Part shown: positions 1,722 to 41,286 of the stretch, piece by piece
How the letters are laid out: each line of letters starts with the position of its first letter
Position numbering within the stretch: the first letter of the stretch is position 1
Source: Flavobacteriales bacterium
GTDB taxonomy: Bacteria > Bacteroidota > Bacteroidia > Flavobacteriales > Flavobacteriaceae
Reading direction: 5' to 3'
DNA length: 41,286 nt
Assembly (NCBI GenBank): GCA_024229195.1
Contig: JAAESS010000109.1
Location: 1 to 41,286, forward strand
Notes under the pieces: generated by a model
The model's database searches: none
Told to the model about the DNA's origin: nothing
What the model saw: only the letters and a program-made list of their open reading frames with translations
Program-made: the position numbers and the translations under genes

Positions 1722-1742
1722 TTAATTTTGCAATAAGTCTTG

Positions 1743-1750
1743 CAAATTTA
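1743..1750 (-). promoter_or_regulatory. -7 box of the ppc promoter
   Basis: Reverse strand TAAATTTG fits the Bacteroidetes -7 consensus TAnnTTTG, 21 bases before the ppc ATG. I see no TTG at the usual -33 distance, so this is a half-supported promoter. Confidence 0.45.
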
Positions 1751-1883
1751 ATAAGAATCGTATGATAATACTATTTTAATCTCAGAATTACAGACTTGGT
1801 AATTTGTAATTTGATAATTTCATGAAACATGAATTTTATGCAAAAAAACTGCATATTTGTCAGCTTTCTATAGCGAAATAGAA

Positions 1884-1903
1884 AACCGCCTCGTGAGGCG
1901 GTT
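1884..1903 (-). terminator. Rho-independent terminator of clpB
   Basis: A perfect 9-bp GC-rich inverted repeat (1884-1892 with 1895-1903, AACCGCCTC/GAGGCGGTT) lies 17 bases beyond the clpB stop and is followed on the reverse strand by a T-rich stretch. It separates clpB from ppc, which is on the same strand. Confidence 0.85.
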
Positions 1904-1920
1904 CTTGTTTTAATCTGTTT

Positions 1921-4512
1921 TTATTGTTTATTTCTAAATACAAGCTGGTCATCAAATGCGTCGAGTAATATATGACTCTGCGCTGAAATCTTGCCGGCTA
2001 AAATTTCTTTTGAAAGCGTATTGAGTACTTCTTTTTGAATTACTCTTTTGATCGGCCTGGCTCCGAATTGTGGGTTAAAACCCTTTTTCGATAAACTTTC
2101 AATAGCATCTCTTGTAGCCTCTAAAATGATGTTTTTTTCTTTTAGCATTTTAGAAAGCGCATTGACTTGCAGCTCAACAATTTGAGTTACTTCTTCCTGA
2201 TTCAAGGGCGTAAACATGATGATCTCATCTATTCGATTGATAAATTCAGGTCTGATGGTTTTTTTCAATAAGCCTAATACATCAAGTTTCGTTGTTTCGA
2301 TGACAGCATCTCGAGCCTCCATATCCATATTTTCAAAATTTTCCTGAATGATATGGGCACCCATATTTGAAGTCATAATGATAATCGTATTCTTGAAATC
2401 AGCTACTCTTCCTTTGTTATCCGTTAACCTTCCCTCATCGAGAACTTGTAGCAAAATATTAAATGTATCCGGATGGGCCTTTTCAATTTCATCCAACAGG
2501 ATCACAGAATAGGGTTTTCTCCTGACAGCTTCTGTAAGTTGTCCTCCTTCATCATATCCAACATATCCTGGAGGCGCTCCGATCAACCTACTTACAGCGT
2601 GTCTTTCCTGATATTCACTCATGTCAATCCTTGTCATTGCAGACTCGTCATCAAATAAATAGTCAGCCAGCGCCTTGGCTAATTCTGTTTTTCCAACTCC
2701 GGTGGTTCCTAAAAACAAGAAAGAACCAATTGGCTTTTTACTGTCTTGTAGTCCTGCCCTTGATCGTCTCACAGCGTCCGAAACAGCTTCAATGGCCTCA
2801 TTTTGTCCGATTACACGAAGGTGAAGTTCATCTTCAAGTTTGAGCAGTTTTTCACGGTCACTTTGTATCATCTTCTGAACCGGAATACCGGTCCATTTGG
2901 CAACAACTTCTGCAATATCTTCACTGGTCACTTCTTCCTTGATCAATGAGTTTTCTTGGTTTGATTCTACTTCCTTTTGAAATTCAGCAAGTTTTTCCTC
3001 TTCCAATTTGATCTTACCATAACGTATTTCTGCCACAAGGCCGTAGTTTCCGTCTCGTTCTGCTCTTTCAGCTTCGAGTTTATATTTTTCTATATTCTCT
3101 TTTGTGGATTGAACTTTGTCAACAATTTCTTTTTCGCTCGTCCATTTGGCATTGATCTCGTTTCTTTTTTCTTTGAAATTAGCCAATTCCTCCTGAAGAG
3201 ATTTAAGCTTCTTTGTATCATTTTCTCTTTTGATCGCTTCAATCTCAATTTCAAGCTGCATTACTTTTCGATCTAGTACATCCAGCTCTTCTGGTTTTGA
3301 ATTGATCTCCATTCGCAATTTAGCAGCTGCCTCATCCATTAAATCGATTGCCTTATCGGGTAGGAATCTGTCACTGATATAGCGTTGTGATAATTCGACA
3401 GCAGCTATAATGGCGCTATCTTTTATTTCTACCTTGTGGTGGGTCTCATATTTGTCTTTGATTCCACGAAGAATAGAAATAGCACTTTCTGTATCAGGTT
3501 CATTTACATTCACTTTCTGGAATCGTCTTTCCAGCGCCTTATCTTTTTCGAAATATTTTTGATATTCATTTAATGTGGTGGCTCCGATGGCTCTTAGCTC
3601 ACCTCTTGCAAGAGCTGGTTTCAGTATATTTGCTGCATCCATAGCACCTTCGCCGCCTCCTGCGCCAACAAGGGTGTGGATCTCATCAATAAAAAGTACA
3701 ATCTCTCCGTCTGAAGAAGTTACCTCTTTGATGACTGACTTCAGTCTTTCCTCAAACTCACCTTTATATTTTGCCCCGGCAATAAGTGCTCCCATGTCAA
3801 GGGAATAAATCACCTTGTTTTGTAAGTTTTCAGGAACATCTCCTTTTACGATTCGATGCGCTAACCCTTCTGCTATGGCAGTCTTTCCAGTTCCCGGTTC
3901 ACCAATTAGAATTGGGTTGTTTTTTGTTCTTCTCGACAGGATCTGCAGGATCCGTCTGATCTCTTCATCTCGCCCAATGACCGGATCCAGTTTTCCGTCA
4001 TTTGCAAGCTGATTGAGATTTTTGGCATATTTACTTAAAGAGTTATAGGTGTCTTCAGCACTTTGTGAAGTCACTTTGTTTCCTTTTCGAAGTTCTTCAA
4101 TGGTACTGTTCAGATCTTTTTCGTTGATACCATTGTCTTTTAATAATTGAGTTGTATCACCTTTTGAATTTAATACAGCAAGTATTAAATGTTCAAGAGA
4201 CACATATTCGTCTTTCATTTTTTTGGCAATGTTGCCGGCATCGATAAGCATTTTGTTGGATGTTTTGGAGAGCATAAGATCTCCGCCTTCCACCTTCGGG
4301 TAACTTTGTATGATATTATCCAGAGTTCTATTGAAAAGTTCAACATTTACACCTAATTTTTTGAGTATAAATGGAGTTACATTTTCATCAACTTCTAAGA
4401 TACCTTTGAGTATATGTGCATTTTCAATTTGCTGATGCCCAAAGCCCTGTGCAATTTGCTGAGCCCTTTGCACGGCTTCTTGTGATTTTATAGTGAAATT
4501 ATTGAAATTCAT
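1921..4512 (-). CDS. clpB: ATP-dependent chaperone ClpB
   Basis: Hexameric AAA+ disaggregase that works with DnaK to rescue aggregated proteins in the cytoplasm. The 863 residues match the usual full length. In order: Clp N domain (residues 1-145), first AAA+ module with Walker A GEPGTGKT at 204-211 and a Walker B ending in FIDEIHT, the long coiled M-domain rich in Glu and Lys that distinguishes ClpB from ClpA/ClpC (about 400-530), second AAA+ module with GTTGVGKT and [10 protein letters not shown], and the C-terminal small domain. The second Walker A has Thr where most ClpBs have Pro. The start [13 protein letters not shown] is the standard family N-terminus. Monocistronic: terminators lie on both sides. 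The upstream region has TGAC repeats that may be a heat-shock control site (see findings). Confidence 0.98.
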
Positions 4513-4582
4513 TTGTTTTTAATTTTCGTTCAATCACTTTAGGGCAAAACATGTTCCACTCATGAATTACGCTTAAAGCTGT

Positions 4583-4624
4583 GTCAAAATGACCGAAATT
4601 TAGCTTATTAGCTGACTTTTTGAC
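4583..4624. promoter_or_regulatory. TGAC/GTCA repeats upstream of clpB
   Basis: GTCAAAATGAC (4583-4593) is an inverted repeat, and two direct TGAC copies (4613-4616, 4621-4624) follow. They lie 70-112 bases before the clpB start in an otherwise featureless AT-rich gap. Their position suggests an operator or alternative promoter, but I cannot name the factor and no consensus -7 box was found for clpB. Confidence 0.25.
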
Positions 4625-4716
4625 TTGTTTCATGTCAATTGGTTCATTGATTTAAAAAAATAAACAAAATAGTACTCAGGACATTTAATTGGTCAGAAAA
4701 GCCAATATGTTTCCCA

Positions 4717-4745
4717 TAAAAAAAGCCTCTGCGTTTGCAGAGGCT
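4717..4745 (-). terminator. Rho-independent terminator of the TlpA-like gene
   Basis: A 9-bp perfect stem (4724-4732 with 4737-4745, AGCCTCTGC/GCAGAGGCT) with a 4-base loop, followed on the reverse strand by a run of T's (4717-4723), begins 22 bases after the stop codon. Confidence 0.9.
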
Positions 4746-4766
4746 CTTCAATATTTTTAAATATTT

Positions 4767-5780
4767 CTAAAGTTCCAATGTGTTTAAAACTTCTTTAAGA
4801 TTTGGGTCAGATGGGCGAGGGGCATTTGAATTTACAATATTTCCTTCCTGATCAATTAGAATGAATCTCGGAATCCCTTCAATATTATAAGCTGTTACGA
4901 AATCAGAACTCCAATCATGATCTGCTAAGACCTGGATACCTCTTAAGTCTTCATCTTCAATCATTTTTAGCCACTTGTCTTTGTTCTCCATTTTATCAAT
5001 AGACAAGCTTACAAAAGCGATATTTTTACCTTTGTACTCTTCATCCATTTCTTTTAGATAAGGAATTTCTCTTTTGCAAGGACCACACCAGGTCGCCCAA
5101 ACATCGATATAGACATATTTACCCTTCAAATCTTCTAATGAAACATTTTTTCCATTTTGATCAGGATAACTAAAACCTGGAGAAGGATCCCCTTTTCTTA
5201 AGCCAATTAATTTTTGATGCTCTTTTTCATAGTTATCCTGAAAGAATATGATCATTTTGTTATTGGCATCTTTCTCCATTTTAACTACAGCTGAGTCAAG
5301 ACCTTTGGCGTTCTTCAGCATGTCATCCATTCTTTGCTTTAAATCTGTAATTTTAGCATCAAAAGGTGCCTTTTCCATTTCAAAGAAAGCTGAATAATTA
5401 CTGATGTTTTCGTCTTCAATAAACTGTAATTTCGTGGTCAGATATTTATTGGTTTCAGATCCGTTTCCTCCGAATTCAATAGATTCAGGGAAATTATTCA
5501 TATCGAAGTTTACCGTCATATCATAACCGTTCTTCAGGTAGAGAAATGATTGAGATTTACCTGTATTGATTCCGTGAAAGCCATCAGTTACCTTTAGCGT
5601 ATCCTTAAATGAACCATCATCATTTACTTTGATATGCTTCTCAAAGTTTCTTCCCAAAATAACAATACTGTCCAACTCAGCATTTTCTATGTTGCCCTGC
5701 AATGTTACAAAGGGATTATTTGGTTCTGTATTACAAGCCATAAAAACAACCAAGGCCATTATCATAAATAACTTCTTCAT
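4767..5780 (-). CDS. TlpA/ResA-like thioredoxin-fold lipoprotein
   Basis: Predicted periplasm-facing thiol-disulfide oxidoreductase. The 337-residue protein begins MKKLFMIMALVVFMAC, a lipoprotein signal with the lipidated Cys at 16. Residues about 25-130 form a beta-rich region resembling the DUF4369 domain usual in Bacteroidetes TlpA proteins; a charged helical linker follows; from about 198 there is an AhpC/TSA-thioredoxin domain with WATWCGPCKREIP (redox Cys 232 and 235) and a GIPRFILID cis-Pro segment. Members of this group reduce or oxidise extracytoplasmic protein thiols or maintain cytochrome c maturation; the substrate here is unknown. The frame stays open 31 codons upstream, but that extension overlaps the promoter -7 box and lacks signal character, so the ATG at 5780 is chosen. 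Single gene with its own promoter and terminator. Confidence 0.9.
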   Translation of the reverse strand: MKKLFMIMALVVFMACNTEPNNPFVTLQGNIENAELDSIVILGRNFEKHIKVNDDGSFKDTLKVTDGFHGINTGKSQSFLYLKNGYDMTVNFDMNNFPESIEFGGNGSETNKYLTTKLQFIEDENISNYSAFFEMEKAPFDAKITDLKQRMDDMLKNAKGLDSAVVKMEKDANNKMIIFFQDNYEKEHQKLIGLRKGDPSPGFSYPDQNGKNVSLEDLKGKYVYIDVWATWCGPCKREIPYLKEMDEEYKGKNIAFVSLSIDKMENKDKWLKMIEDEDLRGIQVLADHDWSSDFVTAYNIEGIPRFILIDQEGNIVNSNAPRPSDPNLKEVLNTLEL

Positions 5781-6925: not shown

Positions 6926-7536
6926 GTGTCACTGCTGTAAAAGGTAGGAAGCTTCAATTTGAATTTTACCGCAATAAGTCTTACCGCTATGACCATAAGC
7001 GTGGTCAAAATATATATTAAATCCTGATCAATTTTGAATTTATTCAAGATCAAAAAGGTCGTTGCCCCGATGATACAAGCCGTTGCGTAAATTTCTTTTT
7101 GAAATATTAATGGGATTTCATTACTCAATGTGTCTCTGATCACCCCTCCAAAAGTAGCTGTGATCACCCCCAAAGAAACACATATAACGGGCTGAAAGCC
7201 ATATTTTAAACCTATTTCAGTACCAATAATTGTAAAGATACCGAGTCCTATTGTATCGAATAAAAAGAGTGATTTACTTAAATAAGCTATTTTTTTTCGA
7301 AAGGAGATCGCCAGGATAACAGAGATAAAAATAACATAGAGATAATTGAGGTTTTGCATCCAGGTGATGCGATCCGCACCAATTAACATATCCCTTAATG
7401 TTCCACCTCCAACTGCAGTCACAAAACCAATGATAAGTACGCCAAAGGTGTCCATTCTCTTTTTAATGGCAAATAATGAACCTGAAATGGCAAATGCAGC
7501 AGTACCCAAAAGATCGAGAAAGTCAAAGATACTCAT
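6922..7536 (-). CDS. TRIC-like / UPF0126 membrane protein
   Basis: Inner-membrane protein of 204 residues with about seven hydrophobic segments. It contains the two family repeats, each with a glycine-rich motif before Arg-Asp: AVGGGTLRD (residues about 41-49) and ATFGGVIRD (about 128-136). These duplicated units are characteristic of UPF0126 (YicG/YadS), related to trimeric intracellular cation channels, so a role as a monovalent cation channel is plausible but inferred from family. It lies 17 bases downstream of the mltF-like stop... read in the other direction, mltF precedes nothing here: this gene is last on the reverse strand after 7554-9032 transcription passes 7553, so its own start at 7536 lies just 17 bases beyond the mltF stop and the two are probably co-transcribed. 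Confidence 0.88.
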   Translation of the reverse strand: MSIFDFLDLLGTAAFAISGSLFAIKKRMDTFGVLIIGFVTAVGGGTLRDMLIGADRITWMQNLNYLYVIFISVILAISFRKKIAYLSKSLFLFDTIGLGIFTIIGTEIGLKYGFQPVICVSLGVITATFGGVIRDTLSNEIPLIFQKEIYATACIIGATTFLILNKFKIDQDLIYILTTLMVIAVRLIAVKFKLKLPTFYSSDT

Positions 7537-31732: not shown

Positions 31733-31759
31733 AAGGCTGGTGTTTAACCAGCCTTTTTT
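31733..31759. terminator. Terminator between the prohibitin gene and the convergent gene
   Basis: A 9-bp stem (31733-31741 with 31747-31755, AAGGCTGGT/ACCAGCCTT), 5-base loop and T run, 29 bases after the prohibitin stop. Its T run overlaps the stop codon of the reverse-strand gene, so it probably serves both. Confidence 0.88.
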
Positions 31760-32621
31760 AGTAAGAATCTTTAACGTGAATAATGTCTTTTTTCACTTGA
31801 CCTTTTTGTAAAGCCCTGTAGTTTTCATAGCATTCAATGACCGCTTCTATGATCTGCAGATCACTTGCTTTATTGATGAATCTATTCGAGTAATTGCATT
31901 CCGAAAGTAAGTCATTCAATTCTTTACGACTCATGTCGAGATAGTCCATCATGATTTCCCGGCTATATTTCTGCTCCATCATATTTCGCATCTGGTCACC
32001 TTCTTTCATTTTTCTTAGGCGATTCATTTCCTTAGGCTTTTTACCAAACTTATTATACCAGAAGTCAACAGGATTAAATATGGCACCCAGTCCCGAATTA
32101 TAATTTCTATTGTAGGAGTTACCTCTTTCATAGGCCTGGGGTAATCCATTGATATGAATTCGACTATAGGAATCTTGAGGTACGTTTTTAGCATCCACCA
32201 CTAATACACCGATAAGTTTATGAGACTTGATGGTCACTTCTTGAATATTGACAACCTTTTCATGTATGGCGATCTCAAGCTCATTACCTTTTAACAGGTC
32301 ATTCGTAATTTTTAACTTGATTGACTGAAATCCAATGTAGGATATGAAAATAGTATCATTCACTACTGCCGGTATTTCAAACTGACCATTTGTATTTGTA
32401 ATTGTACCATCTACAGAGTTCAAATTTACGACATGAGCACTTTGTAATGGTTTTTTATCATTAATACTAATGATTCGACCTTTGAGAGAGTATATATTAT
32501 CATTCGGCTTTTTGATAACTGTATCAAGCGCCGATGAATTAATGTCTTTGGCCTCAATTTCTTGCGCAGAAACATTAAGACTGATAAAGATCAAAAAAAA
32601 TATACATACAATTTTTTGCAT
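31758..32621 (-). CDS. Exported protein with CarboxypepD_reg-like domain
   Basis: 287 residues, secreted: signal peptide ending in NVSAQ. Residues about 45-125 form a beta-sandwich typical of CarboxypepD_reg_2 (SLKGRIISINDKKPLQSAHVVNLNSVDGTITNTNGQFEIPA, then FISYIGFQSIKL), a domain usually at the N-terminus of SusC/TonB receptors in this phylum, here without any receptor. The rest, about 150-287, is polar and helical (NPVDFWYNKFGKKPKEMNRLRKMKEGDQMRN) and I do not recognise it. The ATG at 32619-32621 is preferred to an in-frame TTG two codons upstream. A weak TATCATTG (32625-32632) might be a -7 box. Confidence 0.82.
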   Translation of the reverse strand: MQKIVCIFFLIFISLNVSAQEIEAKDINSSALDTVIKKPNDNIYSLKGRIISINDKKPLQSAHVVNLNSVDGTITNTNGQFEIPAVVNDTIFISYIGFQSIKLKITNDLLKGNELEIAIHEKVVNIQEVTIKSHKLIGVLVVDAKNVPQDSYSRIHINGLPQAYERGNSYNRNYNSGLGAIFNPVDFWYNKFGKKPKEMNRLRKMKEGDQMRNMMEQKYSREIMMDYLDMSRKELNDLLSECNYSNRFINKASDLQIIEAVIECYENYRALQKGQVKKDIIHVKDSY

Positions 32622-32795
32622 GGGCAATGATACTAAATATTGCGTAAACTATTTGATAAATTATTGTGAAAAATATTGTTCTAAACAAAAATTACTTGAC
32701 ACGAAATGACCTTCATATGTGTCACAGGAATAAGAGACAATGTATTTTCCAGATAAGACAAAAACATTGTTTCTGTTTTTAAGAAAATAATTTAA

Positions 32796-33479
32796 TTATA
32801 ACTTGAAACTTACAATTCCACAATCCATCTCAATAATCTGACCCGACATGCGTTTACTTTTCTCAGAGACCAGAAACTCTGCCATTGCCGCGACATCTTC
32901 AGGTTGCAAATAGTTTTTCATAGGGTGTCTTTCTCGCATTTTCTCTTTGATCATATCATTACGTAGTAATTTATCCGCCAAACTTGTTTCTGTTATGGTG
33001 GGTGCTATGGCGTTGAATCTGACCTGAGCAGCAAGTTCAGCACCCAATGATTTAACAAGCGCTTCAACTCCAGCTTTCGCTACAGCAATACTTGCGTGAT
33101 AAGGCATTCCCATTTTAACTGCAACGGTGCTAAAAAGTACAACGGAAGGATCTGTACCTGCTTTCAAAACCTTTAAATATTTTTGAATAACCCTTACAGC
33201 ACCCAAAACATTAATTTCGAAGTCATTTTCAAAATCTGTTTGGGATAGTCTGTTTACGGGCTTCAAGTTAATACTTCCCGGACAGTAGACCAAAGCGTCC
33301 AAACTGTTCAATTCTGGTAAGTCATCGTTTAAAATGTCACAAGAATAATGAACAATATTAGTTTTAAGATTATCAGGTTCTGTCCGACTGATATTGATTA
33401 TTTCATAAGAACTATTCATCTCGTTGATGATAGCTTTTCCTATCCCTTTACTTCCACCTATGATTAAAACTTTTTTCAT
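32796..33479 (-). CDS. SDR-family protein lacking the catalytic tyrosine
   Basis: 227-residue Rossmann protein. The cofactor loop IGGSKGIGKA (7-16), CPGSI in place of NNAG, Asn90 and Ser117 are present, but the YxxxK motif reads Ile131-Ala-Val-Ala-Lys135: Tyr is replaced by Ile. The nearest Tyr is Tyr127, eight residues before Lys. The protein is otherwise intact and of normal length, so it is not a pseudogene; it may catalyse by another route or act as a cofactor-binding partner. It is last in a reverse-strand run after folE (50 bases). That context suggests a link to pterin or flavin chemistry, but this is inference. A TTTGTTCAA motif sits directly before the start. Confidence 0.85.
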   Translation of the reverse strand: MKKVLIIGGSKGIGKAIINEMNSSYEIINISRTEPDNLKTNIVHYSCDILNDDLPELNSLDALVYCPGSINLKPVNRLSQTDFENDFEINVLGAVRVIQKYLKVLKAGTDPSVVLFSTVAVKMGMPYHASIAVAKAGVEALVKSLGAELAAQVRFNAIAPTITETSLADKLLRNDMIKEKMRERHPMKNYLQPEDVAAMAEFLVSEKSKRMSGQIIEMDCGIVSFKL

Positions 33480-33529
33480 ACTATTTGTTCAACCGACTTC
33501 TATTTGCTAAAAATATTATCGATTAGTTT

Positions 33530-34228
33530 TTAAGAGTTAATAAAGTTTTGAAGTTCCACAATCTTTTTGTGCTGTTTGAACACACCGCCATAAAAAGCAG
33601 TTACAGTTGCCGAGGTATCGTCTTTTATACCTCTTGATGAAACACATAGGTGTTTAGCATCAATGATCACTGCAACATCTTCTGTGTCAAGCGCTTCTTG
33701 AAGGTCTTTGGCAATCTGGTTGGTTAAACGTTCTTGTACCTGAGGTCGTTTTGCGTAGTATTGAACAACTCTATTTAATTTTGACAAACCAATTACTTTT
33801 CCTGATGAAATATAAGCAACATGTGCCTTTCCGATGATAGGAACAAAATGATGTTCACAATTGGAATAAAAAGAAATATTTTTCTCAACCAACATTTGAT
33901 CATACTGATATTTATTATCAAAAAGTGCAATCTTTGGTTTGTTTTTAGGATCGAGCCCTGAGAAAATTTCTTCTATAAACATCTTGGCTACTCTATCAGG
34001 AGTACCTTGAAGAGAATCATCATTTAAGTCTAAACCGAGCGTATCCATGATTTCAGTGAAGTGAAATGCAATTCGCTTCTTTTTTTCTTCATCACTTATG
34101 AGAAAAGCTGTAGATTTCATTGGTGTGTCCATACTAGTTAGTATATGGTTATCACCAATTTCTTCGTGGTTTATAATTGAATTTTTTCTTGATTCGTTTT
34201 TGTTTAATAGGGCTTCATTTGTTTTCAT
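33530..34228 (-). CDS. folE: GTP cyclohydrolase I
   Basis: Makes 7,8-dihydroneopterin triphosphate from GTP, the first step to folate and tetrahydropterins. 232 residues including an extra N-terminal stretch of roughly 45 residues with no recognisable domain. The catalytic part has zinc ligands Cys124 and His127 (SNCEHHFVP) and Cys195 (KHLCVSSRG), GKVIGLSKLNRVVQYYAKRPQVQERLT and the GTPDRVAKM segment. It is between the flavin reductase and the SDR gene, all on the reverse strand; gaps are 74 and 50 bases. Pterins such as methenyltetrahydrofolate are photolyase antennae, and this gene is, as I recall, often beside photolyase genes in related bacteria; none is here. No -7 box was found ahead of it. 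Confidence 0.95.
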   Translation of the reverse strand: MKTNEALLNKNESRKNSIINHEEIGDNHILTSMDTPMKSTAFLISDEEKKKRIAFHFTEIMDTLGLDLNDDSLQGTPDRVAKMFIEEIFSGLDPKNKPKIALFDNKYQYDQMLVEKNISFYSNCEHHFVPIIGKAHVAYISSGKVIGLSKLNRVVQYYAKRPQVQERLTNQIAKDLQEALDTEDVAVIIDAKHLCVSSRGIKDDTSATVTAFYGGVFKQHKKIVELQNFINS

Positions 34229-34302
34229 AATTATCTTTTTTTAATGCTGTCTTGATATCGCAAAGCATTGGATTAAATTTATATTTAGTAGTTATGTTAT
34301 TC

Positions 34303-34920
34303 TTATTTTTTTGGTCTTTGGTATGGTAATCTTTTTTTTAGCTTCGGGATTGAATAGCCATCTAAACCATTTATAGCAACAATATTTCCTTTCGACAGAT
34401 CAATAAATCCGTCTTCGTTAAGCAGTTCATCGTCTATATACATTCCCATTATTTCACCAATAATCATGATCGTACCATTTATTTTAAAATGATGTTCTTC
34501 TCTGAATTTCATCTGCATTTGTACAGGCGCTCCTCTTACAAAAGGAGCCATAGAGACATGATCATAATCTTCAATTAATTCGGTCATTGCAAACTCAGAA
34601 ATATCAGCCTCGTATTTGGCAGAGCAATGATGGGCATCTTCAATAATATCCTCATGAATATGATTGATCGTGTAAGTTCCAGTTTCCTTAATATTTTGAT
34701 AAGTGTTACGAGGCACAGTGGTCGGTCTTGTTACAAAACCAAGTAAGGCAGGACTTGATCCTAAATGAATCACAGAACTGAATACCGCCACATTACTAAC
34801 GCCATCTTTGCTCTTTGTCGCAATTAAGTTCGCTGATTTGAAACCTGAGCAGGAATTGATCAGGTTAATGCGATAGAGATGCTCTAAGGTTGAGAGATAT
34901 TTTTGATCAAAATATTTCAT
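34303..34920 (-). CDS. Flavin reductase family protein
   Basis: FMN-binding split-barrel protein of 205 residues, likely an NAD(P)H:flavin oxidoreductase or a flavin-dependent enzyme. Seen: SANLIATKSKDGVSNVAVFSSVIHLGSSPALLGFVTRPT (FMN phosphate and isoalloxazine contacts), NTYQNIKETGTYTINHI, and the GEIMGMYIDDELL strand pair. Start overlaps the ABC1 gene stop by four bases (ATGA), so the two are translationally coupled. This type supplies reduced flavin; the acceptor is not evident. FolE follows after 74 bases. Confidence 0.88.
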   Translation of the reverse strand: MKYFDQKYLSTLEHLYRINLINSCSGFKSANLIATKSKDGVSNVAVFSSVIHLGSSPALLGFVTRPTTVPRNTYQNIKETGTYTINHIHEDIIEDAHHCSAKYEADISEFAMTELIEDYDHVSMAPFVRGAPVQMQMKFREEHHFKINGTIMIIGEIMGMYIDDELLNEDGFIDLSKGNIVAINGLDGYSIPKLKKRLPYQRPKK

Positions 34921-36230
34921 TTCAATGTTTGAAAATTATTAATATCAACATGTTTAGCTTTAAGGTCAAACATCAAATTATACAATCCAAAAAAAGTTCT
35001 ATTCATGTATATAAAGTGCTTGGAGCCTCTATTGCCATTCATTTTACGGAGCTCTGTGCTTTTGGTATATTTCTCACCTAGATCACTTATTTTTCCAAAA
35101 AAACCATGATCAGAGAAATCGAACACTTCGCTTTGAAATGGCTCTGTAAAAACAGTCAGCAATTCATGAAACATCTCAGAGAAGAAGCTGACTTCTTCTT
35201 TGCTGTCAGAGGGTATCAAAATTTCCAGTTCATATAATTTCTTTCTAAAAAACTCTGGGTTACTAAGATTTTCTTTTGTTGCTAATTCAAAATAAGGAAC
35301 ATAAAAGCTATCCGGAATAACTTTGATACACCCAAAATCAAGTGCTACCAGTTCCTTTTCAGGAGAAACAAGAAAGTTTCCTGGATGAGGGTCAGCGTGA
35401 ACTTTTTTGAGTACATGTATTTGATACATATAAAAATCCCATAAAGCCTGTCCGATTTTATCAAGATCTTTTTGCTCGTTGAAATGACTCACATATTCCG
35501 ATAAATGCTCTCCATGCATCCAATCCATCGTAAGAATTTTTTCAGAGGACAGTTCAGGATAATAATCCGGAAACACCAAGTTTGGTATGTGACGGCAAGA
35601 AGCAGCCATTTCCAGTGATTGATTGATTTCCTGATTGTAATCAGTCTCTTCTAGTAATTTGTCTTCCACTTCTTTAAAGTATTTATCAGACTCCTTACCT
35701 CTTATATTTAGCATTTTTATGGCAATAGGTTTAACCAGAGCCAAATCTGACCCGATACTGTTTGCTACTCCTGGATATTGAATTTTTACAGCTAATTCTT
35801 TTCCTTTGTTGTATGCTTTGTGAACCTGACCTATACTTGCTGCATTTACAGAAGTTGAATCGAAACTTTCATAAACCTCTTGGGGAGATTTTCCAAAATA
35901 CTTTTTAAAAGTCCTGATCACAAGGGCAGGAGAGAGTGGTGGCACAGAAAACTGCGACAGTGAAAATTTCTCTACATAGGCCTGTGGCATAATACTTTTT
36001 TCCATACTGAGCATTTGCGCTACTTTCAAAGCACTTCCTTTTAACTTTTTCAGACCATCATAGATGTCTTCAGCGTTATCTTCATTCAGCTTCGCTCTGG
36101 CCTCAACTTTATTTGTTGCCAGTTTATTTCCAAAGTATTTGATATAATTTACCCCAACCTTTGCACCAGTTTGCACTAGATTTGAGGCTCTTTCAACCTT
36201 TGTAATCGGAATTCTATCTATCGTATTCAT
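34917..36230 (-). CDS. ABC1/UbiB-family atypical kinase
   Basis: 437-residue protein kinase-like fold protein of the ABC1/ADCK/UbiB group, which acts in ubiquinone or other isoprenoid-lipid metabolism by ATP binding. Seen: KVAQM at 69-73 in place of the KxGQ motif, AASIGQVHKA (130-139, the nucleotide-binding loop), Lys149 in ELAVKIQYPG, HADPHPGNF at 278-286 and ALDFG at 296-300. The KxGQ position is Lys-Val-Ala-Gln, an Ala for Gly swap in the N-terminal inhibitory segment. Its start shares one base with the stop of the TetR-like gene (TAATG) and its stop overlaps the flavin reductase start by four bases, so all three are translationally coupled. Confidence 0.9.
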   Translation of the reverse strand: MNTIDRIPITKVERASNLVQTGAKVGVNYIKYFGNKLATNKVEARAKLNEDNAEDIYDGLKKLKGSALKVAQMLSMEKSIMPQAYVEKFSLSQFSVPPLSPALVIRTFKKYFGKSPQEVYESFDSTSVNAASIGQVHKAYNKGKELAVKIQYPGVANSIGSDLALVKPIAIKMLNIRGKESDKYFKEVEDKLLEETDYNQEINQSLEMAASCRHIPNLVFPDYYPELSSEKILTMDWMHGEHLSEYVSHFNEQKDLDKIGQALWDFYMYQIHVLKKVHADPHPGNFLVSPEKELVALDFGCIKVIPDSFYVPYFELATKENLSNPEFFRKKLYELEILIPSDSKEEVSFFSEMFHELLTVFTEPFQSEVFDFSDHGFFGKISDLGEKYTKSTELRKMNGNRGSKHFIYMNRTFFGLYNLMFDLKAKHVDINNFQTLK

Positions 36231-36886
36231 TAGTTCATGTAACTTTTTTCATTGTATAAAAATTTTCCTAGATCTATTACGCTTTTGAGGGGTTGTACGT
36301 TGAGCAGATCAAAACCGGTATTGATTGATTTTTCGATAAAAACATCTGTTTTTTCTAAACCTGCACTATCATCATTCATCCAAAATTTAAAACAAAGGAT
36401 CAACTGAACCCATAGACTTTCGGCTAAGGATTTACCCATTAACTTTTCAATTTTGGCATTTTTCAGGTCTAAAGTTTCGATTTCCAAGCTCTCTATCAAC
36501 TCGACGTATTTTGGTTTTAGGGTTGAGATTGTTTTGGGATATCTGGAGTTATTTTGATCCCTGTCCAGAATGCTGAGAACAAAGCTTCTATTCGCTGTTA
36601 GGATTTCAAAAAATGTATAGAAAAAAGTGAGTAATTTATTTCTTCCATTAAATGATCCATATTCTTCACTTTTTTCGAGTAAATCCATCGTTTGTTCAAA
36701 AAACGAATGAAAAATTGATTTTTCCACCGCTCCTAAATTTCCGAAAAACTCATAAAATTGCCCTTCATCAAAGTTATTCAGTTTTGCCAGTTGATACACG
36801 CTTTTTGGCGCTTCTCCATTTTCTAGGTAATAGTCCATATAGAAAGTGTAGATGTCGTTTTTCTTGATATTTTTCTTTCTTGCCAT
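36230..36886 (-). CDS. TetR-like transcriptional regulator
   Basis: 218 residues from the chosen ATG. The N-terminal 60 residues look like a TetR helix-turn-helix (MARKKNIKKNDIYTFYMDYYLENGEAPKSVYQLAKLNNFDEGQFYEFFGN), with YQLAK and YEFFGN in the recognition region, followed by an all-helical ligand-binding domain. It is the first gene of a coupled run with the ABC1 kinase and the flavin reductase, so it likely controls that run and itself. The frame is open 25 codons upstream, but those residues are a hydrophobic mix unlike a DNA-binding domain and overlap a possible operator, so the ATG at 36884-36886 is preferred. Effector unknown. Confidence 0.82.
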   Translation of the reverse strand: MARKKNIKKNDIYTFYMDYYLENGEAPKSVYQLAKLNNFDEGQFYEFFGNLGAVEKSIFHSFFEQTMDLLEKSEEYGSFNGRNKLLTFFYTFFEILTANRSFVLSILDRDQNNSRYPKTISTLKPKYVELIESLEIETLDLKNAKIEKLMGKSLAESLWVQLILCFKFWMNDDSAGLEKTDVFIEKSINTGFDLLNVQPLKSVIDLGKFLYNEKSYMN

Positions 36887-36896
36887 GATATATATT

Positions 36897-36912
36897 TTGT
36901 GTAAATATACAA
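36897..36912 (-). promoter_or_regulatory. Possible operator/promoter of the TetR operon
   Basis: TTGTGTAAATATACAA is an imperfect 16-base palindrome (6 of 8 positions symmetric) ending 10 bases before the TetR start. On the reverse strand it contains TATATTTA, one base off the -7 consensus. An autoregulatory site is plausible. Confidence 0.35.
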
Positions 36913-36946
36913 TTTGTTTAAGAAAAAACATAAATAGTTGAACAAA
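36913..36946. repeat. Imperfect inverted pair TTTGTTTAA / TTGAACAAA
   Basis: TTTGTTTAA (36913-36921) and TTGAACAAA (36938-36946) form an inverted repeat with one mismatch and a 16-base spacer, upstream of the TetR promoter. The second half is the same 9-mer found at three other intergenic places (see findings). Confidence 0.4.
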
Positions 36947-37008
36947 AAAACGTAAAACCACTCAGAAGTCCTTATTTATAGGAGTTTTGTGTACTCTGGA
37001 ATCAAATA

Positions 37009-37051
37009 AAACTTTTATGAGTCTTGTAATTCAGTTTTTTAATAAAAGTTT
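37009..37051. repeat. 10-bp inverted repeat
   Basis: AAACTTTTAT (37009-37018) and ATAAAAGTTT (37042-37051) are exact inverted copies separated by 23 bases, in the gap between the KCPFC protein and the TetR gene. No T run or strong GC core, so not a typical terminator. Confidence 0.4.
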
Positions 37052-37100
37052 GAAAAAGTCGCAATAGAGGTGTTTGTTCTTGTGACAATGTGGGCTGTGG

Positions 37101-37544
37101 TCAAGATTTAACCAAAAGAAAACGATAAAAATAATGAAAATTTCCATTGAACCAAGCACCAAAAAAGAAAGCGGTGTAGATGGTCCAAATTGGCAGCAAG
37201 GAGATGTTACCGTAAGAATCTAATAATAAAAGTATCAAGGCAGTAAGTACAATTATGATGGCTGTTTGAGATTTTTTTCCTTTGTAATTGAATAGAATAG
37301 AACCCAATACAAAAAGTCCAAGCAAGGGTTTCAAATGAATAAAAACGGGAACAAGAGCTGCATTATCAATATCAAAAAACATCATAAAAGCACCGGAATA
37401 AGCGGCTATGCAAAATGGACACTTTGGTAAAAGGATGAGTAAAACTGTCGATAAAAAAGAGACAAAACTATTTTTTTTGGATGGTGATTTTTCCAAAATT
37501 ATAATGGGCTTTGTCTTGCAGCATGGTGCCTTTTCTATTTCCAT
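37101..37544 (-). CDS. Small membrane protein with CC and KCPFC motifs
   Basis: 147 residues with about four membrane segments. The short N-terminal tail has EKAPCCKTK, a vicinal Cys pair, and the first membrane segment ends in LLPKCPFCIAAY. Paired Cys motifs in this layout recall MerC-type mercury or metal transporters, and I favour a heavy-metal or thiol-related role, but the family cannot be fixed from sequence alone. It stands alone between the TetR operon and the divergent xdhC gene. No promoter box was found. Confidence 0.7.
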   Translation of the reverse strand: MEIEKAPCCKTKPIIILEKSPSKKNSFVSFLSTVLLILLPKCPFCIAAYSGAFMMFFDIDNAALVPVFIHLKPLLGLFVLGSILFNYKGKKSQTAIIIVLTALILLLLDSYGNISLLPIWTIYTAFFFGAWFNGNFHYFYRFLLVKS

Positions 37545-37669
37545 TGTTGATTATTCTTTCTTGTGCTATTTCGATATGGATTCATTAATAATTAGCTAAA
37601 AATACGATAATTTAGTTTATTTAGATGGCAAAATTTACGAATAATGAAATATATAGACTAAAATTTGCC

Positions 37670-37677
37670 TATTTTTG
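37670..37677 (+). promoter_or_regulatory. -7 box of the xdhC promoter
   Basis: TATTTTTG, a TAnnTTTG match 16 bases before the ATG. No TTG at the -33 spacing. Confidence 0.5.
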
Positions 37678-37693
37678 AATAAAAAAATAGAGA

Positions 37694-38800
37694 ATGAAAG
37701 AAATAAAATCCATTTTAAAATTTTTTAAAGATGGCTTGTCATCAGGAGAGGAATGTGCAGTAGCTCAAGTAGTTAGAGTTGAAGGTTCTTCATATAGAAG
37801 AGAAGGAGCCAGGATGGTTGTATTTGAATCTGGAAATTTTGAAGGGGGTATCAGTGGTGGATGTCTCGAAGGAGATGCCTTAAAAAGATCGCAACTTGCC
37901 ATCTTAAAACAGGAATCTTCGATAGTGACATATGACACATCCAAAGAAATGGAAATTGGCATTGGACTCGGCTGTAACGGGATCATTGATGTTTTGCTCA
38001 CTCCTGTTAAAAGTGATTCAGAGAATATCAGGATTCTGGAAAAATGTGCATCTGAAAGAAAAACACATATTATCGTCACAATTACAGATTCCGATCTAAA
38101 AGATGAATCATTAAAATTAGGAAAATGCTTTTATTTTGATACTGAAACAAATAAGATCCAAGGAATTGAAAGCTCAGATCTAAAAAGTTATATGCAAAAT
38201 AAGATTGATCTTGTTCTGACGCAAAATAGATCAAGTACCTTCACTTATCCCTCAGAGTCAGGATCTCTGAGTTTTCATGTTGAATTGATTCCAGCTCAAT
38301 ATCATCTTGTGATCCACGGAGATAATTACGATGTCTATCCATTGATTCAAATGGCAGGATTGTTAGATTGGGAAATTAGTTTGGTAGGAAACGTACAAAA
38401 ATTGAAAAAAGAATTTTTACAACAGGTTAGAAACATTTATCCAAAGAATATGTCAGATCGACCAAAAATTGATGATCGAACGGCTGTGATTTTGATGGCG
38501 CATGATTTTAAAACAGATGTGCAAAACTTAAAAGATACGCTTGATAGCAAGGCACCTTACATCGCAAGTTTGGGCCCAAAAAAAAGATTTGAAAAGATGA
38601 AGGATAAGTTCAAGACAGATGGGTATTCTATGAGCGAGAAGGACCTAGAACGGATTCATGCACCTTGTGGCTTGGAAATTGGCGCTGATTCTCCGGAGGA
38701 AATAGCGTTGAGCATTTGTTCAGAAATCATCAGTTCTTTTACAGGTAAAAAAGGTGGGATGTTAAGAAATAAGCTAGACCCTATTCACGACAGGTTTTAA
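37694..38800 (+). CDS. XdhC/CoxI-family molybdenum cofactor insertion protein
   Basis: Binds molybdenum cofactor, helps its sulfuration and inserts it into xanthine dehydrogenase-type enzymes; in Rhodobacter capsulatus XdhC works with a NifS-like desulfurase. 368 residues with two parts: an N-terminal XdhC_CoxI domain (EGSSYRREGARMVV, Cys57 in GGISGGCLEGDAL, IGIGLGCNGIIDVLL) and a C-terminal Rossmann domain from about 205 (YHLVIHGDNYDVYPLIQMAGLLDWEISLVG). The usual closing HAPIGLDIGA reads HAPCGLEIGA here. It is tail to tail with a cysteine desulfurase (14 bases), with the molybdenum hydroxylase genes just beyond. Confidence 0.93.
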   Translation: MKEIKSILKFFKDGLSSGEECAVAQVVRVEGSSYRREGARMVVFESGNFEGGISGGCLEGDALKRSQLAILKQESSIVTYDTSKEMEIGIGLGCNGIIDVLLTPVKSDSENIRILEKCASERKTHIIVTITDSDLKDESLKLGKCFYFDTETNKIQGIESSDLKSYMQNKIDLVLTQNRSSTFTYPSESGSLSFHVELIPAQYHLVIHGDNYDVYPLIQMAGLLDWEISLVGNVQKLKKEFLQQVRNIYPKNMSDRPKIDDRTAVILMAHDFKTDVQNLKDTLDSKAPYIASLGPKKRFEKMKDKFKTDGYSMSEKDLERIHAPCGLEIGADSPEEIALSICSEIISSFTGKKGGMLRNKLDPIHDRF

Positions 38801-38814
38801 TCAGGATCAAAGTG

Positions 38815-39996
38815 TTATAAGGATCTTCGTTCCCAAAGGATATTATTTGATCTTTGTTTTGCCACCTCTTGACCCACTATTCCAATAATCTTATCAATGT
38901 CTGATTCTTTTGTAAACCTGCCCAGACTAAAACGAATTGATGAAAAAGCCATATTTCGTTCCAAACCCATGGCTAATAAGACATGAGAAGGATTTTCGTT
39001 CGCAGAGTTGCAGGCAGAACCATTTGATACTGCCATAGATTTACTCAAAGCACTCAGAAGTTTGAAACCATCAACATAAGCAAAAGAGATATTTAAAGTG
39101 TTAGGCAATCGCTCAGTAGTTCTGCTGTTTGAATATGACTCTTCAATTTCAAGTAATCCTGATTCTAATTGATTTCTCATATCGATGAAATGTTGCCCTT
39201 CTTTTTTCAAATCAGCATATGATATTTCTATGGCTTTTGAAAAACCTGCAATTGCCGGTGTATTTAGCGTGCCACCTCTTATCTTTTTTTGCTGTCCGCC
39301 GCCTTGAATAAAATTGCGAATAATTTGACTATCAGATCTGTTTTTAACATAAACCAAACCTATCCCTTTCGGACCATACAGTTTATGCGCTGAAAAACAG
39401 GCAAAATCCACCGTACTAAATACATCCTCCAAATCAATTTTCCCTAAACTCTGAGTTGCATCACTAAACAAATAAATTCCTTTTCCTTTAATGATTTCTC
39501 TAATTTTTTTTAAAGGTTGAATGATTCCGGTTTCATTATTTGAATGCATTATTGAGACTAAAATTGTTTCTGGGCGTATGGCTTGTTTCAATTGTTCAAG
39601 ATCGATCATACCATTAGCCTGAACATCGAGATACGTCATACTGACACCCTCATATCGCTCTAAAAAATCACAAGTATCGAGCACGGCCTTATGCTCAGTT
39701 TTACAGGTTATAATATGATTACCGCCAAGTTCAAATTTGCTACTAAAACTTTTTAATATCATATTGATACTTTCAGTTGCGCCTGAAGTATAAATAATAT
39801 CATCAACTGAAATTCCTAAAGTTCTTGCTATGACACTGCTAGAGTCAGTTATGTAATCCTTTGCAAGCCAACCATAACTGTGATGTGCACTTGATGGATT
39901 TCCAAAATTTTCACAAAAAAAGGGCATCATATAATCAAGCACTCTCTGATCACAAGGTGTTGTTGCATTGTAGTCTAAATATATTCTGTTATTCAT
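38815..39996 (-). CDS. Cysteine desulfurase (IscS/NifS-like), probably for molybdenum cofactor sulfuration
   Basis: PLP enzyme that takes sulfur from cysteine as a persulfide. 393 residues. Seen: YLDYNATTPCD, SGATESINM, TEHKAVLDTC, SDATQSLGKID, PLP lysine Lys205 in SAHKLYGPKG, and the persulfide Cys329 in SNGSACNSANENPSHVL, in a short loop typical of the IscS type. No scaffold protein (IscU/SufU) or other Fe-S assembly gene is adjacent. Its neighbours are xdhC and the molybdenum hydroxylase subunits, so a dedicated sulfur supply to XdhC-bound cofactor is the best reading, an inference from context. It is convergent with xdhC and divergent from the hydroxylase genes. Confidence 0.92.
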   Translation of the reverse strand: MNNRIYLDYNATTPCDQRVLDYMMPFFCENFGNPSSAHHSYGWLAKDYITDSSSVIARTLGISVDDIIYTSGATESINMILKSFSSKFELGGNHIITCKTEHKAVLDTCDFLERYEGVSMTYLDVQANGMIDLEQLKQAIRPETILVSIMHSNNETGIIQPLKKIREIIKGKGIYLFSDATQSLGKIDLEDVFSTVDFACFSAHKLYGPKGIGLVYVKNRSDSQIIRNFIQGGGQQKKIRGGTLNTPAIAGFSKAIEISYADLKKEGQHFIDMRNQLESGLLEIEESYSNSRTTERLPNTLNISFAYVDGFKLLSALSKSMAVSNGSACNSANENPSHVLLAMGLERNMAFSSIRFSLGRFTKESDIDKIIGIVGQEVAKQRSNNILWERRSL

Positions 39997-40374
39997 AAGT
40001 TCAACCGAAGAATCGGATAGTTTCGCACCCTCAAATTTAAGGTAATTTTGGAAATATTTGTTTTAAAATTGAATTTGACAGCTTTAAAAAGAAGAATAAA
40101 CCGACATGTTTTTATTGTTTTTTTTGACTGTTGCTTGTTTGTTCAAATGCTATTTTTGAAGCTTTTATAAGTCAAATAACTATGTTTTGCTTAACTAATA
40201 TTGCGAATTTATTCGTAACACTTGAACAAAATTGAAATAGTCAACAAATATCAAATCGAAAATATTACGGTCAATAATCATTAATATGGTAAATATAAAT
40301 GTGTCAATTTGTGATTACCATAAAAATTATCAAAATTGTTGTATATTTATGAACACTAATAATTCTAAAAACAA
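39997..40374. other. 378-base divergent gap between the desulfurase and the FAD subunit
   Basis: No gene. It contains two inverted copies of TTTGTTCAA (40138-40146 and 40222-40230), a small CGAAT/ATTCG palindrome (40204-40215), the TATGGTAA/TTACCATA inverted repeat described separately and a TATATTTA near-match to the -7 consensus (40342-40349), 25 bases before the FAD subunit ATG. This reads as a regulatory region for the molybdenum hydroxylase operon. Confidence 0.5.
40285..40322. promoter_or_regulatory. Inverted repeat TATGGTAA-N22-TTACCATA, candidate operator
   Basis: Exact 8-base inverted arms at 40285-40292 and 40315-40322 with 22 bases between. It lies 19 bases upstream of the likely -7 box for the FAD subunit gene, where a regulator would bind. 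Confidence 0.4.
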
Positions 40375-41244
40375 ATGATTCCTTCTAAATTTACCTACCA
40401 TAAAGCGACTACGCTAAAAGATGCGATTGCTTTATCTCAAGAACATGGGGAAGATGCAAAATATATGTCTGGAGGGCATAGTTTGCTACCCATGATGAAA
40501 TTGCGTTTTGCAACGCCTGAACATATTATTGATATTAGTAAAATCGAAGGTCTTTCCTATATTAAGGAAGACGGAGATTGTCTAAAAATCGGAGCACTTA
40601 CGACTCAAACTGAAATGGAGTATTCTGATCTGATCAATGAAAACTATTCCATTTTTTCAGATGCTATTCATTTAACTGCAGATCCTTCGGTAAGGAATAT
40701 CGGTACTATTGGTGGCAATATTGCTCATGGCGATGCAGCCAATGACCAACCAGCCTTAATGCTTGCAATGCGAGCAACCGTTATTGCAGAGGGTGTTGAT
40801 GGTCAAAAATCAATTCCGATTGACGATTTTTTTCATGGATTTTACATGACAGCTTTAGAACAATCGGATGTATTGGTCGAAATTCAGGTTCCCAAAGCAA
40901 AAAAAGGGGCAGGGGGAGCTTATCATAAAGTGGAAAGAAAAGTTGGTGATTATGCCACCGCCGGAGTTGCGGTTCATGTTGAGATCGATGATGATGGTAT
41001 TTGTCAGGAAGTTGGTATTGGACTTACCAATGTAAGTGCAGTTCCAATGCGCCTTGATAGAGGAGAAGAGTTAATAAGAGGTAAGAAAATAACAGATGAG
41101 CTGATTGCCCAGGTTGGAGTTGTCGCAAGTGAAGATTGCGAACCCACTTCTGACTTAAGAGGATCTGAAGCTTATAAAAGATCTATTGTAAATACTATTA
41201 CTCAGCGTATGATTAGGTTAGCGATCGAGCGTTCAAATCACTAA
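40375..41244 (+). CDS. CoxM-like FAD-binding subunit of a molybdenum hydroxylase
   Basis: Medium subunit of the xanthine dehydrogenase / CO dehydrogenase family: carries FAD that passes electrons from the 2Fe-2S clusters to an acceptor. 289 residues. FAD contacts: MSGGHSLLPMMKLR (31-44) and RNIGTIGGNIAHGDAANDQPALML (107-130), the latter closely like CoxM; C-terminal domain with KVERKVGDYATAGVAV and a GLTNVSAVPMR turn. Stand-alone FAD subunits belong to three-subunit enzymes, and the next gene fits the 2Fe-2S subunit, giving M-S order as in coxMSL. The substrate cannot be told without the large subunit. Confidence 0.93.
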   Translation: MIPSKFTYHKATTLKDAIALSQEHGEDAKYMSGGHSLLPMMKLRFATPEHIIDISKIEGLSYIKEDGDCLKIGALTTQTEMEYSDLINENYSIFSDAIHLTADPSVRNIGTIGGNIAHGDAANDQPALMLAMRATVIAEGVDGQKSIPIDDFFHGFYMTALEQSDVLVEIQVPKAKKGAGGAYHKVERKVGDYATAGVAVHVEIDDDGICQEVGIGLTNVSAVPMRLDRGEELIRGKKITDELIAQVGVVASEDCEPTSDLRGSEAYKRSIVNTITQRMIRLAIERSNH

Positions 41245-41256
41245 AAAAATATAAAA

Positions 41257-41286
41257 ATGAAACACAAAATAACTTTAACAATAAAT
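41257..41286 (+). CDS. Start of the probable 2Fe-2S (CoxS-like) subunit, cut by the right edge
   Basis: ATG at 41257 opens a frame for the last 10 codons (MKHKITLTIN), 12 bases after the FAD subunit stop. The pattern of a short beta strand with Lys/Ile/Thr ending in Asn is how CoxS/XdhS small subunits start, before a Gly and the cluster-binding cysteines. Only the position and these residues support the call. Confidence 0.6.
   Translation, partial: MKHKITLTIN

Follow-up and report, generated by a model that had tools for sequence, protein, structure and literature searches.

The window analysed here is the whole of contig C109 (JAAESS010000109.1; 41,286 nucleotides) from a Flavobacteriales bacterium of the family Flavobacteriaceae, whose assembly (GCA_024229195.1) comprises 415 contigs and 3.0 Mb at 90.21% completeness and 7.37% contamination, and its right-hand end carries genes predicted to belong to a carbon monoxide (CO) dehydrogenase locus. 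The first of them encodes a small, weakly MerC-like membrane protein of 147 amino acids (37101-37544, minus strand) with invariant Cys8, Cys42 and Cys45 (PKCPxC), a conserved gene which was not included in the preliminary description of this DNA. It is followed by xdhC (37694-38800, plus strand), encoding a putative molybdenum cofactor (Moco) chaperone of 368 amino acids, in which the Pfam domains PF02625 (XdhC_CoxI) and PF13478 (XdhC_C) score above cut-off, and by nifS (38815-39996, minus strand), encoding an IscS/NifS-type cysteine desulfurase of 393 amino acids (Pfam Aminotran_5 above cut-off, 251 bits). The nifS gene is convergent with xdhC and divergent from coxM, and the 378 bases between nifS and coxM (39997-40374) presumably hold the promoters of both divergent genes; promoter-like sites in 37000-41286 numbered 15 against a shuffled mean of 17.0, i.e., not above chance, and an Rfam scan gave no match. 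The gene coxM (40375-41244, plus strand), for the flavin adenine dinucleotide (FAD) subunit of form I CO dehydrogenase (PF00941, FAD_binding_5, and PF03450, CO_deh_flav_C, both above cut-off), lies directly 5' of coxS, of which the first ten codons (MKHKITLTIN; 41257-41286, plus strand, ATG at 41257) are present before the contig end cuts the gene. The preliminary description had placed xdhC, an IscS/NifS-like desulfurase, coxM and the start of coxS together at 37694-41286, and the open reading frames and Pfam agree with it, as do the ten coxS codons, which match the first ten of coxS on contig C96 exactly.

Contig C96 (12,124 bases) and the window share a gap-free overlap, made up of the last 591 bases of the latter, with 531 identities (90%), so C96 represents a sister genotype and not the same strain; the CoxM proteins of the two contigs share 96% amino acid identity over 182 residues. 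On C96, the end of coxM is followed by coxS (L003:562-1047), coxL, coxG, coxD, coxE and coxF and then, on the opposite strand, by a gene for cytochrome oxidase subunit III (CtaE), and the structural order M-S-L, begun in the window, is completed there. The cluster from coxM to coxF also stands on a single contig in each of G001 and G009, two genomes of the same genus as the window's organism, and loci from named records back the C109-to-C96 order as well. Pfam assigns AAA to CoxD, VWA_CoxE to CoxE, COXG to CoxG, and the XdhC family plus a C-terminal YHS domain to CoxF. The CoxL protein of C96 scores 1208.7 bits against TIGR02416, above the curated cut-off of 991.15, and carries the active-site loop AYRCSFR at 370-376 together with Q223 and E742; in alignment it has counterparts of Q240, C388 and E763 of Oligotropha carboxidovorans, of which we take C388 to be the copper-ligand cysteine and the glutamine and glutamate to belong to the molybdenum site. 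Its four best relatives among solved structures are CO dehydrogenase large chains. The M-then-S order had earlier been read as that of form I coxMSL, with the large subunit, its active-site loop and coxD, coxE, coxF and coxG proposed as what to look for downstream; the expected 2Fe-2S and large subunits and all four accessory genes were found on C96. From their predicted products, the cox genes are assigned to a form I (Mo-Cu) aerobic CO dehydrogenase locus. Very probably, the end of the window lies inside a Flavobacteriaceae form I locus arranged as the MerC-like gene (minus), xdhC (plus), nifS (minus) and coxM, S, L, G, D, E and F-YHS (plus), for which sulfur and copper maturation of the enzyme is proposed. 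Gene content, order, active-site residues, conservation and co-occurrence are read directly from the DNA, from coxS onward in the sister genotype.

A contig scan returned 53 form I loci, counted by locus and not by genome (L067, L091 and L097 come from a single assembly, Ww469, and L059 is almost the same as L079, all being kept in the counts; L051, L092, L060 and L053 are the loci of G009, G001, G020 and G468 under second names), and AYRCSFR is present in all 53. CoxL identity is at least 90% in 43 loci, assigned to Flavobacteriaceae, Maribacter, Robiginitalea, Eudoraea, Gillisia, Robertkochia and Pelagihabitans, with two placed only in Bacteroidia/Bacteroidetes, while the remaining ten come from Cyclobacteriaceae, Rhodothermales, Calditrichia, Neomarinimicrobiota, Anaerolineae and Chloroflexi. 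Cultured strains with the locus in their records include Maribacter orientalis DSM 16471 (L096), Maribacter arcticus DSM 23546 (L077) and Robertkochia marina (L101). Matches to all seven genes in the order M-S-L-G-D-E-F were obtained for 37 of these 43 loci, sometimes with truncation at a contig end, and the other six (L060, L067, L071, L080, L097 and L099) hit a contig end. In 36 of the 37 loci with an intact coxM start preceded by 1.5 kb or more of sequence, an opposite-strand desulfurase gene was found upstream of coxM, and xdhC likewise in 36. The sole desulfurase exception is L053, and in that genome (G468) nifS, xdhC, MoaA- and MoeA-like genes and a MerC-like gene lie together on a different contig. 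Because the same neighbours recur in related genomes, the gene neighbourhood is not a matter of chance.

In addition, xdhC has a MoaA-like gene no more than 400 bases away in 31 of 35 related loci, a MoeA-like gene also stands beside xdhC in some relatives, and between nifS and coxM five loci have a MobA-like gene, joined in three of them by a MocA-like gene (these four names were assigned by eye). With such genes nearby, the surroundings look like a neighbourhood for Moco synthesis and maturation. In the window's own genome the moaA- and moeA-like genes are on contig C171, and the module had been called self-contained, which is too strong here even though most relatives keep a moaA-like gene close by.

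The TIGR02416 cut-off was passed by five of 395 sampled genomes of the class, the window's own included. The locus had also been thought unusual for its phylum; it is indeed uncommon, but form I coxL has already been reported in Bacteroidota (PMC6794299, PMC13203968, PMC13240472), as have CO dehydrogenases in marine Bacteroidota metagenome-assembled genomes (PMC10305171), each source being covered in part. The three surveys concern the same enzyme form in the same phylum; the parts of them covered describe no NifS, CoxF-YHS or MerC-like neighbour, and the word-start 'flavobacter' is absent from their main texts.

Wherever xdhC starts past base 2900 of a related locus, the MerC-like gene is present (30 of 30). 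Among 60 relatives the protein was found only in G000, G001 and G009, each with form I coxL; G020, the fourth form I genome, gave no match, its contig there being just 7.2 kb long. G452 is the genome with the Maribacter algarum record; of the 14 genomes in its genus, seven have form I coxL, and the MerC-like protein occurs in precisely these seven. By homology matching, it is thus restricted to genomes with form I coxL within the two genome sets searched. Moreover, all four other Bacteroidia form I loci have a MerC-like gene of about 30% identity immediately 5' of coxM and in the same orientation. An alignment (A1) of 30 of the 38 MerC-like rows found has Cys8, Pro40, Lys41, Cys42, Cys45, Tyr49, Asn86 and Asn133 invariant. 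The protein shares with Pfam MerC (PF03203) the form of a small helical membrane protein with an early CxxC, but this model matches three of the 30 homologues weakly (best E 4.2e-5) and does not match the window protein itself at E 1, and NCBIfam returned nothing useful for the homologues. Its predicted structure has five helices at a mean pLDDT of 79.3, and since Foldseek gave no match to the Protein Data Bank (PDB) at E 0.001 or better, no claim is made about its fold. We propose that it may supply copper, or another metal, to CO dehydrogenase maturation.

A C-terminal YHS motif is carried by CoxF in 46 of 47 rows (45 of 46 genes, L049 and L092 being one gene), where rows are tblastn matches with a query coverage of 70% or more and the motif pattern is permissive; the single row without it, from a Rhodothermales locus, has an HMA domain instead. 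The motif was also seen in the three other Bacteroidia CoxF proteins long enough to show a tail (L134-L136). When 11 CoxF proteins were compared with Pfam, YHS scored above cut-off in eight and below it in Deinococcus, HMA was found in L085, and neither was found in O. carboxidovorans. Among 13 plasmid-borne cox loci, hand-picked from the top 19 rows of 135 matching records (CoxL identity 56-67%, with the active-site loop checked for O. carboxidovorans alone), the motif occurs in five, namely Thermomicrobium, Natronorubrum, Paraburkholderia, Caballeronia and, in degenerate form, Deinococcus, and is missing from eight, namely seven Alphaproteobacteria, O. carboxidovorans included, and the actinobacterium Nonomuraea. 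Some form I systems therefore do without the YHS tail. In cox-negative genomes of the G452 genus, five XdhC paralogues were read, and all of them lack the motif. We infer that the CoxF tail may be a metal-holding domain for copper insertion, which fits the occurrence of two unrelated metal-binding domains, YHS and HMA, at the same end of CoxF. The suspected copper motif of O. carboxidovorans CoxF, as given in the part of PMC4240915 covered, was compared with other XdhC-family proteins, and the alignment is too loose for a claim.

That the YHS domain and the MerC-like protein are unrelated to the active-site copper, and serve for example in metal sensing or detoxification, is a serious possibility, if somewhat short of an even chance. 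Proteins of the YHS and MerC types occur in metal resistance generally, the tail is missing from most of the plasmid-borne CoxF proteins and degenerate in a ninth, the MerC-like model matched no fold at E 0.001 or better, and metal binding by either is a prediction. Against this, the MerC-like protein goes together with form I coxL and is encoded ahead of coxM, the YHS tail is near-constant in the CoxF rows (one gene counted twice), and the five XdhC paralogues read from cox-negative genomes lack it.

The window's XdhC scores below the equivalog cut-offs of TIGR02964 (61.4 against 161.6 bits) and NF045664 (137.5 against 350) and, since the TIGR02964 cut-off is not reached, is a member of the XdhC family and not an XdhC equivalog. 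The best NCBIfam model of the desulfurase is IscS (TIGR02006; 426 bits, below the cut-off of 643), and its motifs TEH at 100, SAHK at 202 and NGSAC at 325, which we take to be catalytic, are intact. In the desulfurase tree a cox-type clade of 41 rows has a support of 100/99, one gene (L049 and L092) being counted twice; L006, L121 and L125 form long branches, and the Flavobacteriaceae clade alone is used here. No IscU or SufU was matched among the ten window proteins of at least 120 amino acids in 31758-41244, in line with the earlier statement that the desulfurase lacks such neighbours. The window's own genome and five named genomes encode further desulfurase-type proteins, a high-scoring SufS-like and another IscS-like one (labels taken from score and length). 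A second desulfurase linked to XdhC elsewhere had been named as a finding that would speak against the module; no XdhC lies within about 1.5 kb of the seven of 22 other aminotransferase-V matches in the window's genome that were examined (L005, L006 and L008-L012).

In the G452 genus, the cox-type NifS (at least 72% identity) is found in the seven form I genomes and in G457. In the latter, a 27-residue match to the start of coxM lies beside nifS and the rest of the cluster is unmatched on the 3.8 kb contig; form I coxL was not found in this assembly of 2.0 Mb, which is possibly incomplete. Of the six genomes of that genus without the cox-type NifS, the five that were read have a distant XdhC paralogue (about 30% identity) with no NifS match in the stretch, and the sixth gave no XdhC match. 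Among the 60 relatives, NifS of at least 60% identity is shared by the four form I genomes and G004, the last being a genome in which no form I coxL was found either. As G004 and G457 retain NifS, the link between nifS and the cox genes is strong and not strict, and the pair can outlive the CO dehydrogenase. These two genomes speak against a desulfurase found only together with form I cox genes, and the term 'dedicated' in the preliminary description went too far.

The same findings bear on the possibility that the xdhC-nifS pair provides general Moco sulfuration for all molybdenum hydroxylases of the cell and merely adjoins the cox genes, which we regard as somewhat doubtful but still live. 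It draws support from the retention of nifS in G004 and G457, from other molybdenum-hydroxylase-like proteins encoded in G004 and in the window's own genome, and from G053, where a NifS-like gene of 42% identity adjoins another molybdenum hydroxylase. It is opposed by the G452 genus, where all seven form I genomes have the cox-type NifS and, among the other seven, only G457, with its coxM remnant, has it, while the five cox-type-NifS-negative genomes read show a distant XdhC without NifS nearby and the sixth no XdhC at all. The G053 gene (L121, 8165-9298) is convergent to the large subunit gene of that other hydroxylase, with MoaE/MoaC-like genes nearby as judged by eye. Downstream of their cox genes, L086 and L088 (Neomarinimicrobiota) have a NifS-like gene (41-43%), so that a desulfurase may have become linked to form I cox independently there.

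The G004 genome also bears on the joining of the two contigs. Its DNA follows C96 to base 7294, about 100 bases beyond coxF, and about 85 bases further on the start of the window's nifS is reached; homologues of CtaE, DUF_8848 and o9859 (the last two being ad hoc labels for further C96 genes) share this stretch with nifS, xdhC, tetR and ABC1. From this alignment, coxM to coxF are evidently missing between the flanks in G004. It is very improbable that C96 is foreign to the organism and that the window's coxM and coxS lead elsewhere: the overlap identity of 90% instead of 100% and the fragmented, partly contaminated assembly would allow it, but the right flank of C96 and the left flank of C109 meet in G004, and G001 and G009 hold the whole cluster unbroken, so that the C109-to-C96 gene order is supported. 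There is very little chance that the cluster belongs to a different molybdenum hydroxylase, for instance an aldehyde or glyceraldehyde dehydrogenase: the best NCBIfam models of CoxM and CoxS are glyceraldehyde dehydrogenase subunits (below cut-off), but this identity is rejected on the CoxL motif AYRCSFR with its presumed copper-ligand cysteine and on the TIGR02416 cut-off, and coxD, coxE, coxF and coxG are present.

Across L051-L103, CoxL is 91.5-97.7% identical (median 94.4, 42 loci), CoxM 68.6-88.6% and CoxF 55.2-80.4% (38 loci each), and by this comparison CoxL is much more conserved than these two partners. The window's XdhC is 72% identical to that of G001 and 63% to that of G009, while its CoxM is 89% identical to that of G009 and 73% to that of G001, and among the desulfurases the window groups with G001, whereas G009 groups with G004, in the tree; this conflict suggests a mosaic history in which coxM to coxF were exchanged, with a break between nifS and coxM. 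In Eudoraea sp. Ww469, coxL occurs on each of L067, L091 and L097, two of them complete, so this assembly is mixed or the gene is multi-copy. A second CoxL-like protein (41-44% identity) was found in all seven form I genomes of the G452 genus, with an in-frame TGA in one and a contig end cutting another, and had no match at E 1e-100 in the other seven genomes; both such proteins read, L127 (G452 genus) and L050 (G032), carry AYRGAGR, which we take to be the form II type. Contig C78 (L004) of the window's own genome encodes at 1203-5009 a two-subunit molybdenum hydroxylase with a twin-arginine-like N-terminus, adjoining a rhodopsin-like gene (by eye).

The best comparison is the coxMSLDEFG cluster on pHCG3 of Oligotropha (Afipia) carboxidovorans OM5, with which the present locus shares the coxMSL order, the CoxL active-site residues and coxD, coxE, coxF and coxG. 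The O. carboxidovorans CoxF has 280 amino acids and ends after the XdhC Rossmann domain without YHS, whereas a YHS tail follows here; coxG stands after coxF there and directly after coxL here; MHYT-domain genes flank the cox genes there, and the 20 kb read contained no NifS-like or MerC-like match, unlike the present locus. The kind of enzyme is already known, and the accessory-gene set, as predicted, is a variant relative to O. carboxidovorans. Treatment with Cu(I)-thiourea has been applied to coxE and coxF mutant enzymes of O. carboxidovorans. In that organism, coxE and coxF mutants yield an enzyme without copper, CoxF has been proposed as the supplier of Cu(I), and sulfuration is modelled to take place inside the folded apoenzyme with CoxD, according to the part of PMC4240915 covered. 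For Rhodobacter capsulatus, the part of PMC2997495 covered reports that NifS4 sulfurates XdhC-bound Moco; as in that XdhC-NifS4 pair, for which joint action was proposed, an XdhC-family protein and an L-cysteine desulfurase come together here, and the pairing pointed out in the preliminary description holds throughout nearly all of the testable loci. Unlike that pair, the two genes here are adjacent and linked to CO dehydrogenase, and their products may interact.

Open-licence main texts, with supplements outside the scope, were searched for these combinations. Among the matches listed for coxL or coxMSL with cysteine desulfurase, only PMC2997495 holds the term; YHS with CO dehydrogenase returned only selenoprotein reviews, XdhC with YHS returned none, MerC with coxL returned only a soil community study, and Flavobacteriaceae and Maribacter with CO dehydrogenase returned only a kelp microbiome paper. 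As far as these searches go, the linkage of nifS and xdhC to cox genes in Flavobacteriaceae, the CoxF-YHS fusion and the MerC-like protein restricted to CO dehydrogenase genomes would be new.

In the proposed maturation scheme, the desulfurase would take sulfur from cysteine and hand it to Moco held by XdhC; alternatively, it may aid a CoxD-dependent sulfuration in the enzyme. CoxD, an AAA+ ATPase, and CoxE, a VWA protein, would act on the folded apoenzyme, while CoxF would deliver Cu(I), here via its C-terminal YHS domain, and the MerC-like membrane protein may provide the copper of CoxF. The finished CoxLMS would oxidize CO to CO2 and pass the electrons to respiration. Some points weigh against this picture. 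The coxL gene is outside the window, on a contig of a sister genotype (531 of 591 bases) in a mixed assembly, and NifS persists in G004 and G457 although form I coxL was found in neither. Moreover, the 13 plasmid-borne cox loci (18-20 kb each) gave no NifS-like match, and neither did the form I loci of the four other Bacteroidia, so a desulfurase gene nearby is not needed by other form I systems. In the O. carboxidovorans model, sulfuration takes place in the folded apoenzyme with CoxD (PMC4240915, covered in part), so NifS may act either on XdhC-bound Moco or at the enzyme.

Tentatively, and with rather less than even confidence, we suggest that many non-alphaproteobacterial form I systems have a copper route of their own, in which CoxF-YHS (HMA once, in Rhodothermales) would act as a copper chaperone, fed in Bacteroidota by the CO dehydrogenase-restricted MerC-like protein, while the linked NifS and XdhC would give the bridging sulfur in Flavobacteriaceae. 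If this is true, the sulfur and copper arms of maturation adjoin within one locus. Relatives which keep nifS, and in which coxL was not found, would offer a natural comparison between service to CO dehydrogenase and general Moco service. Copper is the more interesting lead of the two, since the metal-binding tail of CoxF, lacking in O. carboxidovorans, and the membrane protein that accompanies the enzyme across the genomes searched would be concrete targets for studying how copper is delivered to the Mo-S site.

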